DNA of 54,341 nt from a virus: IMG/VR virus record IMGVR_UViG_3300047509_000095, positions 1 to 54,341 of that record; one strand, written 5' to 3'. Below are positions 8,207 to 53,015 of the stretch, piece by piece (within the stretch, counting starts at the first letter, position 1; every line of letters begins with the position of its first letter). The translations under genes and the position numbers were made by a program. The notes beneath the pieces were generated by a model, which saw only the letters and a program-made list of their open reading frames with translations, was not told the origin of the DNA and ran no database searches.

Positions 8207-8602
8207 CTACACCGCGAAAGGGGAGATGCCATATTTCGTGGCGATTTGCTTACGCTTCGTTTCGGCTTTATCGGATGCGTGGCGAGTGAACTCCCGGAAG
8301 GAGGCGCCAACAGCGATTTTCAACACGCGGGCCTGATTCAGCGTGGTGTTGTAGTTGATCGACTCGTCGGTGTTCGCAAATTCCGCTTTGGCCAGGCCCA
8401 CTTTAGTGTTGTAAGCCGTCTCAGCCTCCGACCGAATGGTTTTTGTATCCCTCCCACTATGGCGGGTTGCGCAAACGCAACCGAAGTAGAACACCACACC
8501 ATCGTCGCGTTCCATGGCGACAGTTGATTTCAAGTTCGATTTGCCGCAGCAATCGCAAGTATTAACATCGTCTACGATTGCGAGAGTCTTGTAAGTTGCC
8601 AT
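8207..8602 (-). CDS. Hypothetical 131-aa protein with Cys motif
   Basis: Start chosen at 8602, which has a GGAGAAA site and gives an MATYKTL N-terminus like that of the neighbouring unit. An upstream in-frame extension to 8803 would run through the promoter. Near the N-terminus DVNTCDCCGKSNLKST and FYFGCVCATRH supply paired cysteines that could bind zinc. The C-terminal half is helical and charged. No family recognised. It is the first gene of a two-gene leftward unit with the HTH protein. Confidence 0.8.
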   Translation of the reverse strand: MATYKTLAIVDDVNTCDCCGKSNLKSTVAMERDDGVVFYFGCVCATRHSGRDTKTIRSEAETAYNTKVGLAKAEFANTDESINYNTTLNQARVLKIAVGASFREFTRHASDKAETKRKQIATKYGISPFAV

Positions 8603-42089: not shown

Positions 42090-42262
42090 GACCCGCCCCC
42101 GTTCATGATGAACCCGAGCAGGAAGGCCAGCAGACCGATCGCGATCCAGCAGCAAGCGATCAACAGGCCGGCGCACACGAACGGCGAACGAGGCGTCCAG
42201 GGGATCACGCGGCGAGAGATCGTCGGGATGACCGGGGTTACGCGTTTGCGGAAGATGTTCAT
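42086..42262 (-). CDS. 58-aa single-TM protein
   Basis: The ATG at 42262 overlaps the clamp-like gene's stop, and the stop overlaps the wHTH start, both as ATGA. It reads MNIFRKRVTPVIPTISRRVI, then a hydrophobic stretch CAGLLIACCWIAIGLLAFLL and a short Gly tail. The basic N-terminus suggests the C-terminus faces the periplasm. Function unknown. Confidence 0.78.
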   Translation of the reverse strand: MNIFRKRVTPVIPTISRRVIPWTPRSPFVCAGLLIACCWIAIGLLAFLLGFIMNGGGS

Positions 42263-42873
42263 ACAAAGCTCTCGAGAAGTGGGTGGTGGGCAAAGCTCGG
42301 GATCGGCGGCTTGGGTTCTTTTTCCGTATTGTGGTTGTAAGGTGAGATGACTCCGATGAAAAGGGGTTCGACCCGAATGCCGACGACACCCGGCGCTTTC
42401 GGGCCGTTTTGGTAGATGATTGGGCTTTCGTTCTTTTGCCCCAACAACACGGCTACCTTCTTGAACCGCGCGATCAGGTCAGCGCTATAGTCGCCCGGCT
42501 CACCGGACACAGATGACGGGATCACGCGCAGATAATCGGGGAATGTCCCTTCGACTGGCGTGAATGGGTAGGCGTCATTGCCGATGCAAAGTGACCAGTC
42601 GCCCGTGCCGTTGTCGTGAACGTAAAGCAGGTTAGGGTCTTTGGCAGTGACCAGCTCAACCTTGGCACGCGGGATAGTCAAGGTGATGACACCCTCGACC
42701 TGGTTCTCGCAAGGATAAGACAGGCACCCGGCAAGCGAGCCATCGGTAGCGACCAAGCGAGTCTCACCACTTGACGCGATGACGTGAACGCCATTCAGGT
42801 AATAGCGGATATCCTGATTAGCGGCAAGGACGCGTGCTGCGCGCAGGTAATCCCGTTTGATATTGATGCGCAT
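42259..42873 (-). CDS. Sliding-clamp-like protein (DnaN domain)
   Basis: 204 residues with GAGG upstream. Segments DIRYYLNGVHVIA, TRLVATDGSLAG, VTLTIPRAKVELV-type and GTFPDYLRVIPSS are the landmarks of one beta-clamp domain pair (the ATDG and FPDYRRVIP motifs of DnaN domains 2-3). Bacterial clamps have about 370 residues, so this is a shortened clamp with perhaps two domains. It may serve the phage polymerase as processivity factor or compete with the host clamp. Confidence 0.78.
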   Translation of the reverse strand: MRINIKRDYLRAARVLAANQDIRYYLNGVHVIASSGETRLVATDGSLAGCLSYPCENQVEGVITLTIPRAKVELVTAKDPNLLYVHDNGTGDWSLCIGNDAYPFTPVEGTFPDYLRVIPSSVSGEPGDYSADLIARFKKVAVLLGQKNESPIIYQNGPKAPGVVGIRVEPLFIGVISPYNHNTEKEPKPPIPSFAHHPLLESFV

Positions 42874-42992: not shown

Positions 42993-44234
42993 TCAATCCT
43001 TCACGAATTTACCGTCGACGACCTTGTACCAGACATCGGCATCCAGGTCTTCGCCGATGTAGCCGACGAGAAAGCGCATGCGCTTGCCATCGTGCCAAGG
43101 CGTGGCGATACACCCGCCTTCCGCAGCCTTGAACAAGTAGACACCGTTCGCGCACGCGATCACAGCATCCTTGCCGGTTGCGTCGATCCGGGCGGAGCCG
43201 CCGCTGCTGCCGATCTGGGCGTAGCCGCCGCTGCTGCCGATCCGGGCGGAGCCGCCGCTGCTGCCGATCTGGGCGTAGCCGCCGCTGCTGCCGATCTGGG
43301 CGTAGCCGCCGCTGCTGCCGATCCGGGCGGAGTCGCCGCTGCTGCCGATCTGGGCGGAGCCGCCGCTGCTGCCGATCCGGGCGGAGTCGCCGCTGCTGCC
43401 GATCTGGGCGGAGCCGCCGCTGCTGCCGATCTGGGCGTAGCCGCCGCTGCTGCCGATCTGGGCGGAGCCGCCGCTGCTGCCGATCCGGGCGGAGTCGCCG
43501 CTGCTGCCGATCTGGGCGGAGTCGCCGCTGCTGCCGATCTGGGCGGAGTCGCCGCTGCTGCCGATCTGGGCGGAGTCGCCGCTGCTGCCGATCCGGGCGG
43601 AGTCGCCGCTGCTGCCGATCTGGGCGGAGTCGCCGCTGCTGCCGATCTGGGCGGAGCCGCCGCTGCTGCCGATCCGGGCGGAGTCGCCGCTGCTGCCGAT
43701 CTGGGCGGAGCCGCCGCTGCTGCCGATCCGGGCGTAGCCGCCGCTGCTGCCGATCCGGGCGGAGTCGCCGCTGCTGCCGATCTGGGCGGAGCCGCCGCTG
43801 CTGCCGATCCGGGCGGAGTCGCCGCTGCTGCCGATCTGGGCGTCGTATTTATCAGAACAGAGATCACTTGCCGGCGTCTCGGCAGCGATCTTCGCGTAAC
43901 TGGAAGGGATCGTCACGAGCCACGCCTTGGCCACCATGTTGAATGCGACAGCGAACTCGCCACTGTAGACAACGTCACCAGCACGAAACTTGACCTTGCC
44001 CCCGATCCGTACGATGTCGGCCTCGTCAACGGACACGACCTGCCAGATGGCTTGGTCGTGGTCCTTGATATCGGACCAGTTACCCTCTGGCCACAGGATG
44101 CCATGCAACCCGTGACCGCATTCTGGCTTCGGGTTCCAGTCTGGGCACTCGACCCGACCGGACGCGGGCCACTGGAAACCGCCGTGTGCTTTGCCGTCCT
44201 TGTCGCTCGTGCGCAGGACCAGAACTTTTGCCAT
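42993..44234 (-). CDS. Repeat protein with 24 nonapeptide units
   Basis: 413 residues. The N-terminal 130 residues (DGKAHGGFQWPASGRVECPDW, HGLHGILWPEGNW) resemble a phage domain I remember as DUF7666-like. Residues about 132-347 consist of 24 units of A(Q/R)IGSSG(D/G)(S/Y), with no insertions, then ARIDATGKDAVIA. Such 9-residue repeats would build a beta-solenoid. The last 65 residues are mixed. Role unknown; a solenoid could mimic DNA or bind proteins. GAGG precedes the start and the promoter at 44292-44320 drives it. Confidence 0.85.
   Translation of the reverse strand: MAKVLVLRTSDKDGKAHGGFQWPASGRVECPDWNPKPECGHGLHGILWPEGNWSDIKDHDQAIWQVVSVDEADIVRIGGKVKFRAGDVVYSGEFAVAFNMVAKAWLVTIPSSYAKIAAETPASDLCSDKYDAQIGSSGDSARIGSSGGSAQIGSSGDSARIGSSGGYARIGSSGGSAQIGSSGDSARIGSSGGSAQIGSSGDSAQIGSSGDSARIGSSGDSAQIGSSGDSAQIGSSGDSAQIGSSGDSARIGSSGGSAQIGSSGGYAQIGSSGGSAQIGSSGDSARIGSSGGSAQIGSSGDSARIGSSGGYAQIGSSGGYAQIGSSGGSARIGSSGGYAQIGSSGGSARIDATGKDAVIACANGVYLFKAAEGGCIATPWHDGKRMRFLVGYIGEDLDADVWYKVVDGKFVKD
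43194..43841 (-). repeat. 27-bp tandem repeat, 24 copies
   Basis: Contiguous 27-base units run without spacers, coding for nine residues each. Units differ only at set positions: CAG or CGG (Gln/Arg), GAC or GGC (Asp/Gly) and TCC or TAC (Ser/Tyr). The lack of stop codons in every frame of the unit opens long false frames on both strands. Unequal recombination should change copy number readily. Confidence 0.95.
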
Positions 44235-44332: not shown

Positions 44333-45439
44333 TTATTTGTGGTATCGCGGGCCCTCGAACCCCTCAGCCGCGAGGGGTAGTCCTGCCGACCACTTCTTAT
44401 TCGCCGCCAAAAGCTTGCACAAACCACGAACAGAAAAGCGATCTTCGTCGGGTGTCTCGGTCAAGGCTTCATCGTGCACGGTGAGAACCATCTCGTAGCC
44501 GGCGGCTTCGATGTCAGGCATGTTGTAAGCCAGCACATCGCGCGCGATCCCTTGCGTACATTGCTCGAAAGTTTTCCCCCCGTAGGACTTGATACGGCAA
44601 TACTTCCGGTTGTACTGGTTCACGCCCATGTACGACCAACCGCCGTCCTTGTCCACCTGCGGCGACGGGTAGCACAGGAACCCGCCCGAGGGTAACTGGA
44701 TGCGCAGCCACGCGCCGTCGCGCCGGATCTTGAGCTTGCCATCGGCGAGCACGTAGGTAACCCCCGGCCGGTTGGTGGCCATCACCACGGCGTCGCCCAG
44801 CTCCTTCCACAGCGCCACGATGCGGGGGTGCGCCAGACGCCAGGCGCGCTTGAACACGTCGCACACGATGAACACTTCACGGGATAGGCCATACTGGGCG
44901 GCGTCCAGTTCCTCCTTGACGCGGTTCGCTTCCGTTTGCAGATCGGCGCCCTTCTTGATCCGCTTCTCGCTCGCGTCCCACACCTTACTGTGCAGCCATG
45001 ACAGAAACTTCTCGGCCTCGACCACCAGCTCGATCGGCAGGTCGGGCCACGCGTCGGCGGCCATTTGGTCCAGGTCGATGTTATAGGCGATGGCAAAGGT
45101 CACGAAGGCACCAACACCGCCCTGGTAGCCGAGGGCGAGTTCCTGTACCTTGCCCTTCTGGCGCTGGTCCTTCGTCACCATCCCAGGGTTTATCCCGAAC
45201 GAGTTCGCGTACGCAAGGCAGTACAGATCGAAACCCTTGCGGATCGCCTTGCCCTTCTCGTCGTGCCCGAGGATGGTGTCGTAATCCCGGAACGCTTGCA
45301 GCTTCCAGGACTCCCCGGCGAGCCACGCCTGCACACGGCCCTCGATGTTGGACAAGTCGGCCACCACTAGCTTCTTGCCCGGCGGCGCGATGATGCAGCC
45401 GCGCATTGCGCTTGCGGCTACTTCCATGACGTTATGCAT
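44333..45439 (-). CDS. DNA polymerase family A, C-terminal fragment (palm/fingers)
   Basis: 368 residues from the ATG at 45439 (GGAAG upstream, overlapping the HTH stop). Motif A VVADLSNIEGR (25-35) holds the first metal Asp. Motif B RQKGKVQELALGYQGG (about 93-109) holds the fingers Arg and Lys, and motif C LTVHDEAL (about 319-326) the second Asp. These are complete polymerase motifs, but exonuclease and thumb parts are in the separate gene at 45703. Its N-terminus NVMEVAASAMRG continues exactly where that fragment stops. The two products probably assemble into one enzyme. Confidence 0.9.
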   Translation of the reverse strand: MHNVMEVAASAMRGCIIAPPGKKLVVADLSNIEGRVQAWLAGESWKLQAFRDYDTILGHDEKGKAIRKGFDLYCLAYANSFGINPGMVTKDQRQKGKVQELALGYQGGVGAFVTFAIAYNIDLDQMAADAWPDLPIELVVEAEKFLSWLHSKVWDASEKRIKKGADLQTEANRVKEELDAAQYGLSREVFIVCDVFKRAWRLAHPRIVALWKELGDAVVMATNRPGVTYVLADGKLKIRRDGAWLRIQLPSGGFLCYPSPQVDKDGGWSYMGVNQYNRKYCRIKSYGGKTFEQCTQGIARDVLAYNMPDIEAAGYEMVLTVHDEALTETPDEDRFSVRGLCKLLAANKKWSAGLPLAAEGFEGPRYHK

Positions 45440-45710
45440 TGAGCGTCTTCCGCATCGCTTTGGCAAGCGCATCCAGCGAGGTGCCGTAAGCTGCCGATAT
45501 GCGCATGACCATCTCGAACGACGGCACGTGCTTCTGGTTCTCAAGCCCCCACAAATACGATTTGGAGCACCGGATTTGTTGCGCACCATCGTCGAGTGTG
45601 TATCCTATCGACTCCCGAAGTGTCTTAATTACTTGGTGAAATGGGTAGTCGCCTTCGAGCTCGGCGCATTTCGGAAAGTAGAGCACTCCGTTTATTCGAA
45701 CTTCAGTCAT
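45432..45710 (-). CDS. HTH protein inserted between the polymerase halves
   Basis: 92 residues. The ATG lies within the last polymerase N-fragment codons (overlap of eight bases) and is preceded by GAGGAG. The C-terminal 60 residues have an XRE-like HTH: VIKTLRESIGYTLDDGAQQIRCSKSYLWGLENQKHVPS, followed by MRISAAYGTSLDALAKAM. The N-terminus has a VRINGVLYFPK strand. It could regulate transcription of its own operon, or be the cargo of a mobile element that split the polymerase. Removing 272 bases (45434-45705) restores an unbroken polymerase frame. Confidence 0.88.
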   Translation of the reverse strand: MTEVRINGVLYFPKCAELEGDYPFHQVIKTLRESIGYTLDDGAQQIRCSKSYLWGLENQKHVPSFEMVMRISAAYGTSLDALAKAMRKTLNA

Positions 45711-46809
45711 AAAATATCTCCTCTACTCCGTGTCTAATTGCCTCGATGCCGAAGTCGATCTCGGCCTGAAGCTCGTCGTCATGCAAGTCCCCGATCTTCG
45801 GGCGCAGCATGTTCTGTGGTTGCACCAGGCGCCCGGCCCATCGCTTCGTGCGCTGGGCACCGGCGAACTGCAGCAGCCCCCGCGCGCGCTGGTCGCTTGA
45901 CACCCCGTGCACGATCGTCTTGTACTTGCTGGTGCTGGAGGACGATGCTTGCAGCCGGTTGGCGAGCAGCATGCGCAGCGCGACCGGCAAGTCCGGGTCG
46001 TCGATCCGGCGCTCGAGCGTTGACTTCTTCAGGTCGGGCAAGTCAACCCCGAAGCGCGCGAGCAGGAATTTCAGGAGCTTGTCGCGCTGCGTCGTCTTCT
46101 GGACCTCGCCATCGGTCAACTCGACCGTCTGCCGGGACAGCTTGGCCTGGGCGCGGGCCACGGCCTGAATGGCGGCGGCCGCGAAGTCGGTGTCCATCAG
46201 CGCCCCGCGATTATTTATTTTGGCGTCAAGGTGCCACAGGTCGAGCTCGGGGCCGCTGTAGTTCCACATCGGCAGCTTCTTATGGATCGCGCGCATTGGC
46301 GCGATGTCGTCAACGGCGTAGGTCTTGAACTGCTCCCAGCGCTCGGGGTGCGTGTGCCGCGTCGCGCGCGGCTTGCCCATCGGCTGGGGTTTGCAAAATA
46401 GCTGGATCAGCGCCTTGCCGTCTTTGTTCTTGCGCTGGTCCCGTGGCAGGCCCAGGATGTCCCCCAGCACGTCAAGGCCGCCCGGCATGCCGTGGGTCAG
46501 CGCTTGCGCCAGCGTGCAGCGAAACCGCTTCTGCTCGGTCAGCAGCTTCCATAGCGACGGGCGGCAGTACCGGATCACGGTGCCGTCGAACATGACATTG
46601 TGGAACCAGATCAGGATATCGCGGTCAGCGAGGATGTCTTCCAGATCGGACGGCATCTTCGGGTTCACGGTCAAGTCCCACAGGCTGGTCGGCCCGTCGC
46701 CTACGGCATAGGGCCACAGCATGATCTCCGATTTTTCCGCGTAGGCGTGGGTGCCGTCCTTGAGCGGGACTTCGGAAAAAGTCTCGAGATCCTGGAACGA
46801 GTCGATCAT
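45703..46809 (-). CDS. DNA polymerase family A, N-terminal fragment (3'-5' exonuclease/thumb)
   Basis: 368 residues from the ATG overlapping the methyltransferase stop. Exo I is DLET (7-10), Exo II FHNVMFD, and Exo III YAVDDIAPM, so proofreading residues are present. Then follows DLWHLDAKINNRGALMD and a thumb-like helical part, ending GLLQFAGAQRTKRWAGRLVQPQNM...GVEEIFYD before the stop. In intact phage family A polymerases the chain continues directly into VM...SxxRG. This fragment therefore lacks motifs A-C, which are in the next-but-one gene. Confidence 0.9.
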   Translation of the reverse strand: MIDSFQDLETFSEVPLKDGTHAYAEKSEIMLWPYAVGDGPTSLWDLTVNPKMPSDLEDILADRDILIWFHNVMFDGTVIRYCRPSLWKLLTEQKRFRCTLAQALTHGMPGGLDVLGDILGLPRDQRKNKDGKALIQLFCKPQPMGKPRATRHTHPERWEQFKTYAVDDIAPMRAIHKKLPMWNYSGPELDLWHLDAKINNRGALMDTDFAAAAIQAVARAQAKLSRQTVELTDGEVQKTTQRDKLLKFLLARFGVDLPDLKKSTLERRIDDPDLPVALRMLLANRLQASSSSTSKYKTIVHGVSSDQRARGLLQFAGAQRTKRWAGRLVQPQNMLRPKIGDLHDDELQAEIDFGIEAIRHGVEEIFYD

Positions 46810-47228
46810 GCTAAAGGCCGAAACACACACACAGCGGAAGGAAAGGGTGCGCTCGTCGCCGCGCCGCCAAACTTGAGGCGCCCCCGAATAAAGCGCACTT
46901 CACCCTTCGCGGCGTAGTCATGCCACCAAGCGGTGTCCGTGCGTGCCGGTACGAGGCACACCACGAGGGCGCCGTCCAATACCGACGACTCATAAGCCTT
47001 GCGCATCCAGTCGCCGATAGTGCGCCCGTATGGCGGGTTCATGAAGACAATTTCATCGGACCACGATTGCGTGAGCCCATCGTCCGATTCAGTGAAGTGT
47101 TTTTGTACGGTGGCGTTCTCGTGTGTGCAGCACGGGTCCAGTGTGAAATTAAACTCGGCGTTGAGCGCATCGAAAAAATCACGCGGGGTGTACCACTCTG
47201 GCGTAGCCGAGGAGAAATGCACGCTCAT
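46806..47228 (-). CDS. Phage-type DNA N6-adenine methyltransferase (Dam)
   Basis: 140 residues: WYTPRDFFDALNAEFNFTLDPCC at the N-terminus, IVFMNPPYGRTIGDW with the catalytic NPPY, and GRLKFGGAATSAPFPSAVCVF near the end, as in the phage Dam family (PF05869-like). It transfers methyl from AdoMet to adenine in DNA, probably to guard phage DNA from restriction. GAGGTTGAT precedes the start. A second methyltransferase, C5 type, lies at 52260. Confidence 0.92.
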   Translation of the reverse strand: MSVHFSSATPEWYTPRDFFDALNAEFNFTLDPCCTHENATVQKHFTESDDGLTQSWSDEIVFMNPPYGRTIGDWMRKAYESSVLDGALVVCLVPARTDTAWWHDYAAKGEVRFIRGRLKFGGAATSAPFPSAVCVFRPLA

Positions 47229-52189: not shown

Positions 52190-52263
52190 GACTGCTGCGC
52201 TGCCACAGGTGCGGGCTGCTGTATAACCCGCTGCGAATCCATCGTTGCCCTCATTGCAAATGA
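52186..52263 (+). CDS. 25-aa zinc-ribbon microprotein
   Basis: The ATG overlaps the repressor stop and the stop overlaps the methyltransferase start, both as ATGA. It reads MRLLRCHRCGLLYNPLRIHR followed by CPHCK, with a CxxC...CxxC set able to bind one zinc. The double coupling is the main sign that this very short gene is real. It may act with the repressor or the methyltransferase; nothing shows which. Confidence 0.72.
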   Translation: MRLLRCHRCGLLYNPLRIHRCPHCK

Positions 52264-53015
52264 GCGACTACTACAACGAATTTGACCCGTACGTTGCGCA
52301 ATGGCTACGCAATCTAATTGCTGCTGGCCTGATCCCTGACGGCGTGGTCGATGAAAGCGATATCCGAGATGTCAACCCTGCCTACCTCATGCAGTTCAGA
52401 AGGTGCCATTTCTTCGCCGGCCTTGGTGGCTGGCCCCTCGCCTTGCAGCTTGCCGGCGTCCCAGACAGCGAACGCCTGTGGACTGGCTCGTGCCCCTGTC
52501 AACCTTTCAGCGTGGCAGGTCGAGGCCTTGGGTTTGCTGACGAGCGGCACCTGTGGCCTCATTGGCACTGGCTCATCGAACAGTGCCGCCCTGCAAAAAT
52601 ATATGGAGAGCAGGTTGCGAGCAAGGCTGCAGAGCCTTGGATCGACCTTGTACACGCTGACCTGGAAGGTCTGGGTTACGCCTTCGGGTGTGTCGCGTTC
52701 CCGTCTGCGGGCGTGGGCGCGCCCTGCGTCCGAGACAGAGCTTACTGGATGGCCCGCGCCCTACACCCCGAGGGAGAAGGATTCGGACCAATCGGCGTTC
52801 CGGTGGACCCCGAGCGGGCAGCAAACGAACCCGGTCCAGGCGATTTTTGGAAAACGGATGCGGTTATCCGATGTGCCGATGGAAGAACGCGGCCAATTAA
52901 ATCCAGCATTCAACCATTGGCTCCTGGGTATCCCGGGCGGTGTGGCGAACTGCGCGCCCTCGGGAACGCGATCAATGTTGAGCAAGCGCGCATCTTCATT
53001 GAAAGCTGCATGTGA
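52260..53015 (+). CDS. C5-cytosine DNA methyltransferase
   Basis: 251 residues. Motif I FFAGLGG (51-57), motif IV GSCPCQPFS with catalytic Cys80, motif VI in the form GEQV (116-119, usually ENV), motif VIII VRDRAYW (157-163) and a C-terminal LGNAIN as motif IX/X. The target-recognition region is short, so it is compact for the family. It methylates cytosine in DNA from AdoMet, probably against restriction. Most of it is overlapped by another protein-like frame (52351-53019). It overlaps the primase/helicase start by GTGA. Confidence 0.92.
   Translation: MSDYYNEFDPYVAQWLRNLIAAGLIPDGVVDESDIRDVNPAYLMQFRRCHFFAGLGGWPLALQLAGVPDSERLWTGSCPCQPFSVAGRGLGFADERHLWPHWHWLIEQCRPAKIYGEQVASKAAEPWIDLVHADLEGLGYAFGCVAFPSAGVGAPCVRDRAYWMARALHPEGEGFGPIGVPVDPERAANEPGPGDFWKTDAVIRCADGRTRPIKSSIQPLAPGYPGRCGELRALGNAINVEQARIFIESCM

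Follow-up and report, generated by a model that had tools for sequence, protein, structure and literature searches.

The window analysed here, i.e. the whole stretch of 54,341 nucleotides from IMG/VR virus record IMGVR_UViG_3300047509_000095, encodes a family-A (Klenow-type, BPP-1-like) phage DNA polymerase in two pieces. What is new is that the cut is not unique to the window, but recurs at the same loop in other phages, with varied passengers or none lodged between the pieces. We consider it probable that the two pieces form a working split polymerase, that an acquired HTH gene was inserted in a tolerant loop, and that its product probably acts as a regulator carried along as a passenger. 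An intact BPP-1-type family-A gene would have been interrupted by a 272-nt insert with a small acquired XRE-type HTH gene, at a position which a structural model of a relative assigns to a variable loop on the surface, immediately ahead of the helix preceding motif A. Judging from the overlaps and the Shine-Dalgarno-like sites, ribosomes travelling along one mRNA would finish the N piece, start the HTH frame at ATGACTGA, and then finish the HTH frame and start the C piece at ATGCATAA. By analogy with gp43A/gp43B of T4-like phages, and considering that many phages have the same arrangement, the exonuclease/thumb and palm/fingers pieces may then assemble into a working polymerase.

Two polymerase pieces and their junction

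On the minus strand of the window, a methyltransferase-like ORF is followed by the polymerase N piece, the HTH ORF and the polymerase C piece (Table 1). The N piece, for which a GTG at 46830 is a possible alternative upstream start, matches the PHROG 17 DNA polymerase (E 2e-38), shares 52-55% identity with the N halves of the YeP5 and BPP-1 polymerases, and keeps the exonuclease motif DLE near its N-terminus; no solved structure is close to it by sequence. The C piece matches Pfam DNA_pol_A above cutoff as well as three polymerase PHROGs, is 48-55% identical over its full length to BPP-1, YeP5 and BcepC6B, and keeps both motif A (ADLSNIEGR) and motif C (VHDE). When compared with the BPP-1-type family-A class, the pieces exhibit homology over the full length (exonuclease, thumb, palm and fingers) along with the catalytic residues, and depart from the class in not being a single continuous gene.

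Table 1. Features of the split polymerase locus and of its surroundings in the window.
Feature	Position	Strand	Remarks
Methyltransferase-like ORF	46806-47228	-	named by eye
DNA polymerase N piece	45703-46809	-	368 aa; coordinates include stop; ends ..EEIFYD-stop; 3'-5' exonuclease domain, thumb, first part of palm
GAGGAG	45718-45723	-	Shine-Dalgarno-like; 7 nt before HTH start, within last N-piece codons
Overlap ATGACTGA	45703-45710	-	8 nt; HTH start / N-piece stop
XRE/Cro-type HTH ORF	45432-45710	-	92 aa; between polymerase pieces
Insert	45434-45705	-	272 nt; deletion gives one frame, ..IFYD-NVMEV.. (D joined to N)
GGAAG	45447-45451	-	weak Shine-Dalgarno-like; 7 nt before C-piece start, within HTH gene
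Overlap ATGCATAA	45432-45439	-	8 nt; C-piece start / HTH stop
DNA polymerase C piece	44333-45439	-	368 aa from ATG 45439; coordinates include stop; begins MHNVMEV; rest of palm, fingers
Repeat protein	42993-44234	-	downstream of polymerase; many SA(Q/R)IGSSGD-type repeats
Putative beta sliding clamp	42259-42873	-	named by eye
ORF YYNEFDPYVAQWLRNLIAAG..	52245-53015	+	resembles the C5-methyltransferase carried between the polymerase pieces of L053

That an N piece ending FYD-stop and a C piece continuing NVMEV are restored to one frame by removal of the 272 bases between them, as the preliminary description had it, is borne out by the ORFs and by tblastn alignment with intact polymerases. In YeP5, BcepC6B and many IMG/VR loci (the latter designated by L-numbers) the two matches abut exactly, with query residue 368 of the N piece next to residue 1 of the C piece: in YeP5 the N match extends to 8451 on the minus strand, where the C match takes over at 8450, and in many of the IMG/VR loci the boundary lies between 4000 and 4001. 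For BPP-1 the last N residue is unaligned, hence the 4 nt between the N and C matches. Since the halves abut at the junction in intact homologues, the split is clean and not a product of chance; a chance arrangement is likewise excluded because the matches in close relatives cover the whole pieces, at ~45-58% identity and with E <=1e-80. As in other phage split genes, two complementary ORFs make up one intact homologue, with no residue lost. A sequencing error is rejected as the cause of the split: the insert is 272 nt of coding sequence, which a read-level frameshift error cannot create.

The HTH gene overlaps both polymerase pieces, at its start and at its stop, just as had been noted before, and translation of the three frames would be coupled through these overlaps. 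The weakness of the Shine-Dalgarno-like site of the C piece is one point against the explanation that we favour.

To locate the cut in the enzyme we modelled the intact relative L002 with AlphaFold2 from a 35-sequence alignment (mean pLDDT 92.4); the solved folds closest to the model are Klenow fragments. The cut maps to 377/378 in a 3-residue loop (376-378) between helices 372-375 and 379-390, with the motif-A strand at 397-404 and the motif-A aspartate being the 26th residue after the cut. None of the alignment columns 346-387 (L002 numbering) is invariant. The earlier statement that the cut falls at a conserved palm position before motif A is therefore right about motif A, just ahead of which the cut lies, but not about conservation, the site being a loop between two helices in a stretch devoid of invariant columns. 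In the model, the exonuclease, the thumb and the beginning of the palm lie on one side of the cut, and the remainder of the palm with the fingers on the other; the place appears to be a tolerant one.

Other phages split at this loop

When viral contigs were scanned with the C pieces of the window and of split relatives, 169 loci were obtained (some contigs twice), with more added later. The polymerase is split at the same loop in 32 distinct IMG/VR loci and, in addition, in L032, a distant outlier with a GTG start. Essentially no insert is present in ten of the 32 (L011, L050, L052, L055, L056, L085, L130, L149, L152 and L198), and the other 22 have coding inserts. The cargo comprises (i) N6/N4 methyltransferases (L003 and L133 by Pfam; L126, L135 and L166 alike by eye), (ii) C5 methyltransferases (L053 by Pfam; L159 and L167 alike), (iii) a 236-aa protein without Pfam match (L027; L048, L086, L087 and L150 alike), (iv) HNH nucleases with NUMOD4 (L045; L131 alike) or with AP2 (L047; L048, L049, L058 and L139 alike), (v) DUF7220 (L087; L159 alike), and (vi) other ORFs of 40 to 201 aa (L025, L046, L051). 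Close relatives within the split clade carry differing cargo, and the HTH gene of the window is the insert in none of the 32 loci nor in the outlier. In L204 the N piece is absent because the contig joins unrelated sequence upstream.

The split clade (L011, L003, L027, L045 and others) shares with the window the polymerase type, the loop, the start/stop overlaps and a coding insert of variable content. It differs in its cargo and at the junction itself, where the N piece ends ..EDLV-stop and the C piece starts M(T/S)xVME (typically ..GAGGATTTGGTATGACAAGCGTTATGGAA.., with MTSVME as the C start). A literature search, with most subscription journals outside its reach, found no account of BPP-1-type polymerases that are cut at a common site and carry interchangeable cargo there.

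Because 32 further loci are split at this loop, ten without and 22 with a coding insert, the break has evidently been tolerated over long evolution. This bears on the view that the polymerase is a decaying pseudogene and that another enzyme replicates the phage. A split can indeed be the first step of gene loss, but neither piece has a further frameshift or stop, the catalytic residues are kept, the base composition is of the coding type (third-position GC of 0.86 in the N piece, 0.81 in the C piece and 0.62 in the HTH gene), and no fewer than 32 further distinct phage loci keep the same split. Hence, we regard decay as distinctly unlikely.

The scans yielded further observations on polymerase architecture. 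Near 4990-5010 in L138 and L140 the polymerase is continuous (..EDLIGGPTVMD..), and since these continuous genes are nested deep inside the split clade (support 100), their sequences suggest re-fusion of a split polymerase. A second break just before motif C leaves the polymerase in three pieces in L025, L027, L085, L086, L126, L149, L150 and L152; it takes the form ..IE(A/T)WRP-stop with an overlapping ATG or GTG start (e.g., L025:3950-4180 and L027:4870-5110) and corresponds to the loop before the VHDE strand in the L002 model. The C pieces of L087, L126, L149, L150 and L152 comprise 600-632 aa, ~300 aa over the usual length and in frame, and the extra residues are probable inteins.

The HTH gene and its insert

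The HTH protein scores above the Pfam cutoffs for both HTH_31 (E 2e-9) and HTH_3 (E 2e-8), as is characteristic of XRE/Cro HTH regulators, and exhibits weak likeness to RstR, SlrR and SinR. The G+C content of the insert is 52.6%, versus 62-63% in the two polymerase pieces, and 4.6% of the 272-nt stretches of the window have G+C as low. Searches of viral contigs, GTDB species genomes, phage records and plasmids turned up weak generic HTH matches only and no close copy of this gene; no second copy was found within the window, and no terminal inverted repeat was seen by eye at the insert ends. The preliminary description had also considered a small mobile HTH module, which should have related copies at other sites or terminal repeats; with neither found, this idea lacks support.

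Most likely, judging from its domain, the HTH protein is a passenger that would bind DNA as a regulator. A tighter role may be considered as well, in line with the regulated split polymerase of the preliminary description: as an autorepressor or a third subunit, the HTH protein would govern how the polymerase is made or put together. XRE-type domains are often repressors, and the overlapping starts and stops link production of the HTH protein to that of both pieces. Relatives with a split in this loop, however, carry unrelated cargo or none, and the HTH protein is thus not needed for such a split enzyme; we consider this regulated form unlikely.

Another possibility is that the HTH ORF lies within a small self-splicing intron or other spliced element, so that one polymerase polypeptide is made. 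Removal of the insert restores the frame exactly, a cut three bases earlier likewise keeps it, group I introns are known in phage polymerase genes, and the match to the related APSE-1 polymerase is interrupted at a later site, where an HNH gene is annotated. On the other hand, the insert consists almost entirely of a single HTH coding frame, whose start and stop overlap the polymerase pieces, and the relatives split at this loop have unrelated ORFs or no insert. Moreover, the insert has no Rfam match at either the gathering or a permissive threshold and its fold is no better than that of shuffled sequence (z-score 0.07), on which grounds a group I intron is rejected. Splicing of any kind is hence very unlikely. 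An intein is rejected too: the insert, at 272 nt, is not a multiple of three and thus out of frame, as had been pointed out, and stop codons are present at the junctions.

In a split gene created by a homing endonuclease the inserted gene encodes such an enzyme, and none is inserted here; the ORF matches XRE HTH families alone, in agreement with the earlier view that the insert is not such an enzyme. HNH endonucleases with NUMOD4 or AP2 domains do occupy the same loop in other phages, and the HTH ORF might be conceived of as the DNA-binding remnant of an endonuclease that once split the gene. This is exceedingly unlikely, considering that the ORF matches no NUMOD or nuclease family and constitutes a whole small protein.

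Origin of the split, known precedents and significance

In a 70-row tree, the 26 split-clade members included form one group (support 100), the window is placed with L002, BcepC6B and other intact rows, and the intact/split state requires three changes. A 7-residue linker insertion (KIGxLxDExLQxEID; length read from the alignment, since a separate length count mixes rows whose N match stops a few residues early) is common to the window and the intact loci L002, L005-L008 and L015, and is absent from the split-clade loci compared. At the junction of the window the N piece still has Y-D; the split clade has lost this YD of intact enzymes. Because the window groups with intact relatives having the same linker insertion, and because its N piece keeps the Y-D lost in the split clade, an independent split is favoured: that of the window likely arose separately from that of the split clade. 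In an AU test on 31 rows, however, a shared origin for the split of the window and that of the clade was not rejected (p 0.27), which is a second point against our preferred explanation. One may speculate further that independent lineages have repeatedly broken the enzyme in the loop before motif A, that this loop serves them as a docking site where translationally coupled passengers keep being swapped, and that in the window the regulator passenger sets the amount of active polymerase; taken as a whole, this proposal is rather unlikely.

Split phage genes are already known, and the split polymerase of the window is a variant of these. The T4-like Aeromonas phages 25 and 44RR have a split gene 43A/43B polymerase, and in phage 25 the gp43A and gp43B pieces purify together and have activity (PMC2988022). 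As in the window, a replicative phage polymerase is coded for as two polypeptides, with additional DNA separating the coding regions; the enzyme is, however, of family B, and either a seg homing endonuclease or untranslated sequence stands where the window has an HTH gene (PMC2988022). For the proposed assembly of the N and C pieces, gp43A/gp43B is the best precedent. For a family-A enzyme split with a small ORF in between, the best one comes from the OM43 phages MEP401 and MEP402, with polymerase and intervening ORF arranged as ORF13-ORF14-ORF15 (PMC10580990; OP830906), for which the authors left the possibility of an intron open (PMC10580990). Here, too, a small ORF, of 77 aa, separates the pieces, and the cut lies between the RLSS..PNLQN motif and motif A, but the polymerases are only distantly related, the cut is nearer motif A, and ORF14 has no family assignment and does not overlap the neighbouring ORFs. 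BPP-1 (Rauchvirus) and BcepC6B have a polymerase homologous over its full length and a similar replication neighbourhood (exonuclease, SSB-like protein, polymerase, endonuclease and helicase); in both, the polymerase is one continuous gene.

Some neighbouring ORFs merit mention in their own right. The putative beta sliding clamp in the window is unexpected in such a replication module, and L198 carries, directly upstream of its polymerase, a C5-methyltransferase of the same look as the C5-methyltransferase-like ORF of the window.

Taken at its broadest, the finding is that a core replication enzyme is broken at one surface loop in many phages, and that the gap is a gene slot whose content varies between close relatives; at times the slot has apparently been closed again, by the suggested re-fusion in L138 and L140. 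This opens to test how essential enzymes survive fission, and how phages bring accessory genes under coupled expression. Finally, the same cut could guide the design of a two-part Klenow-type polymerase for laboratory use.
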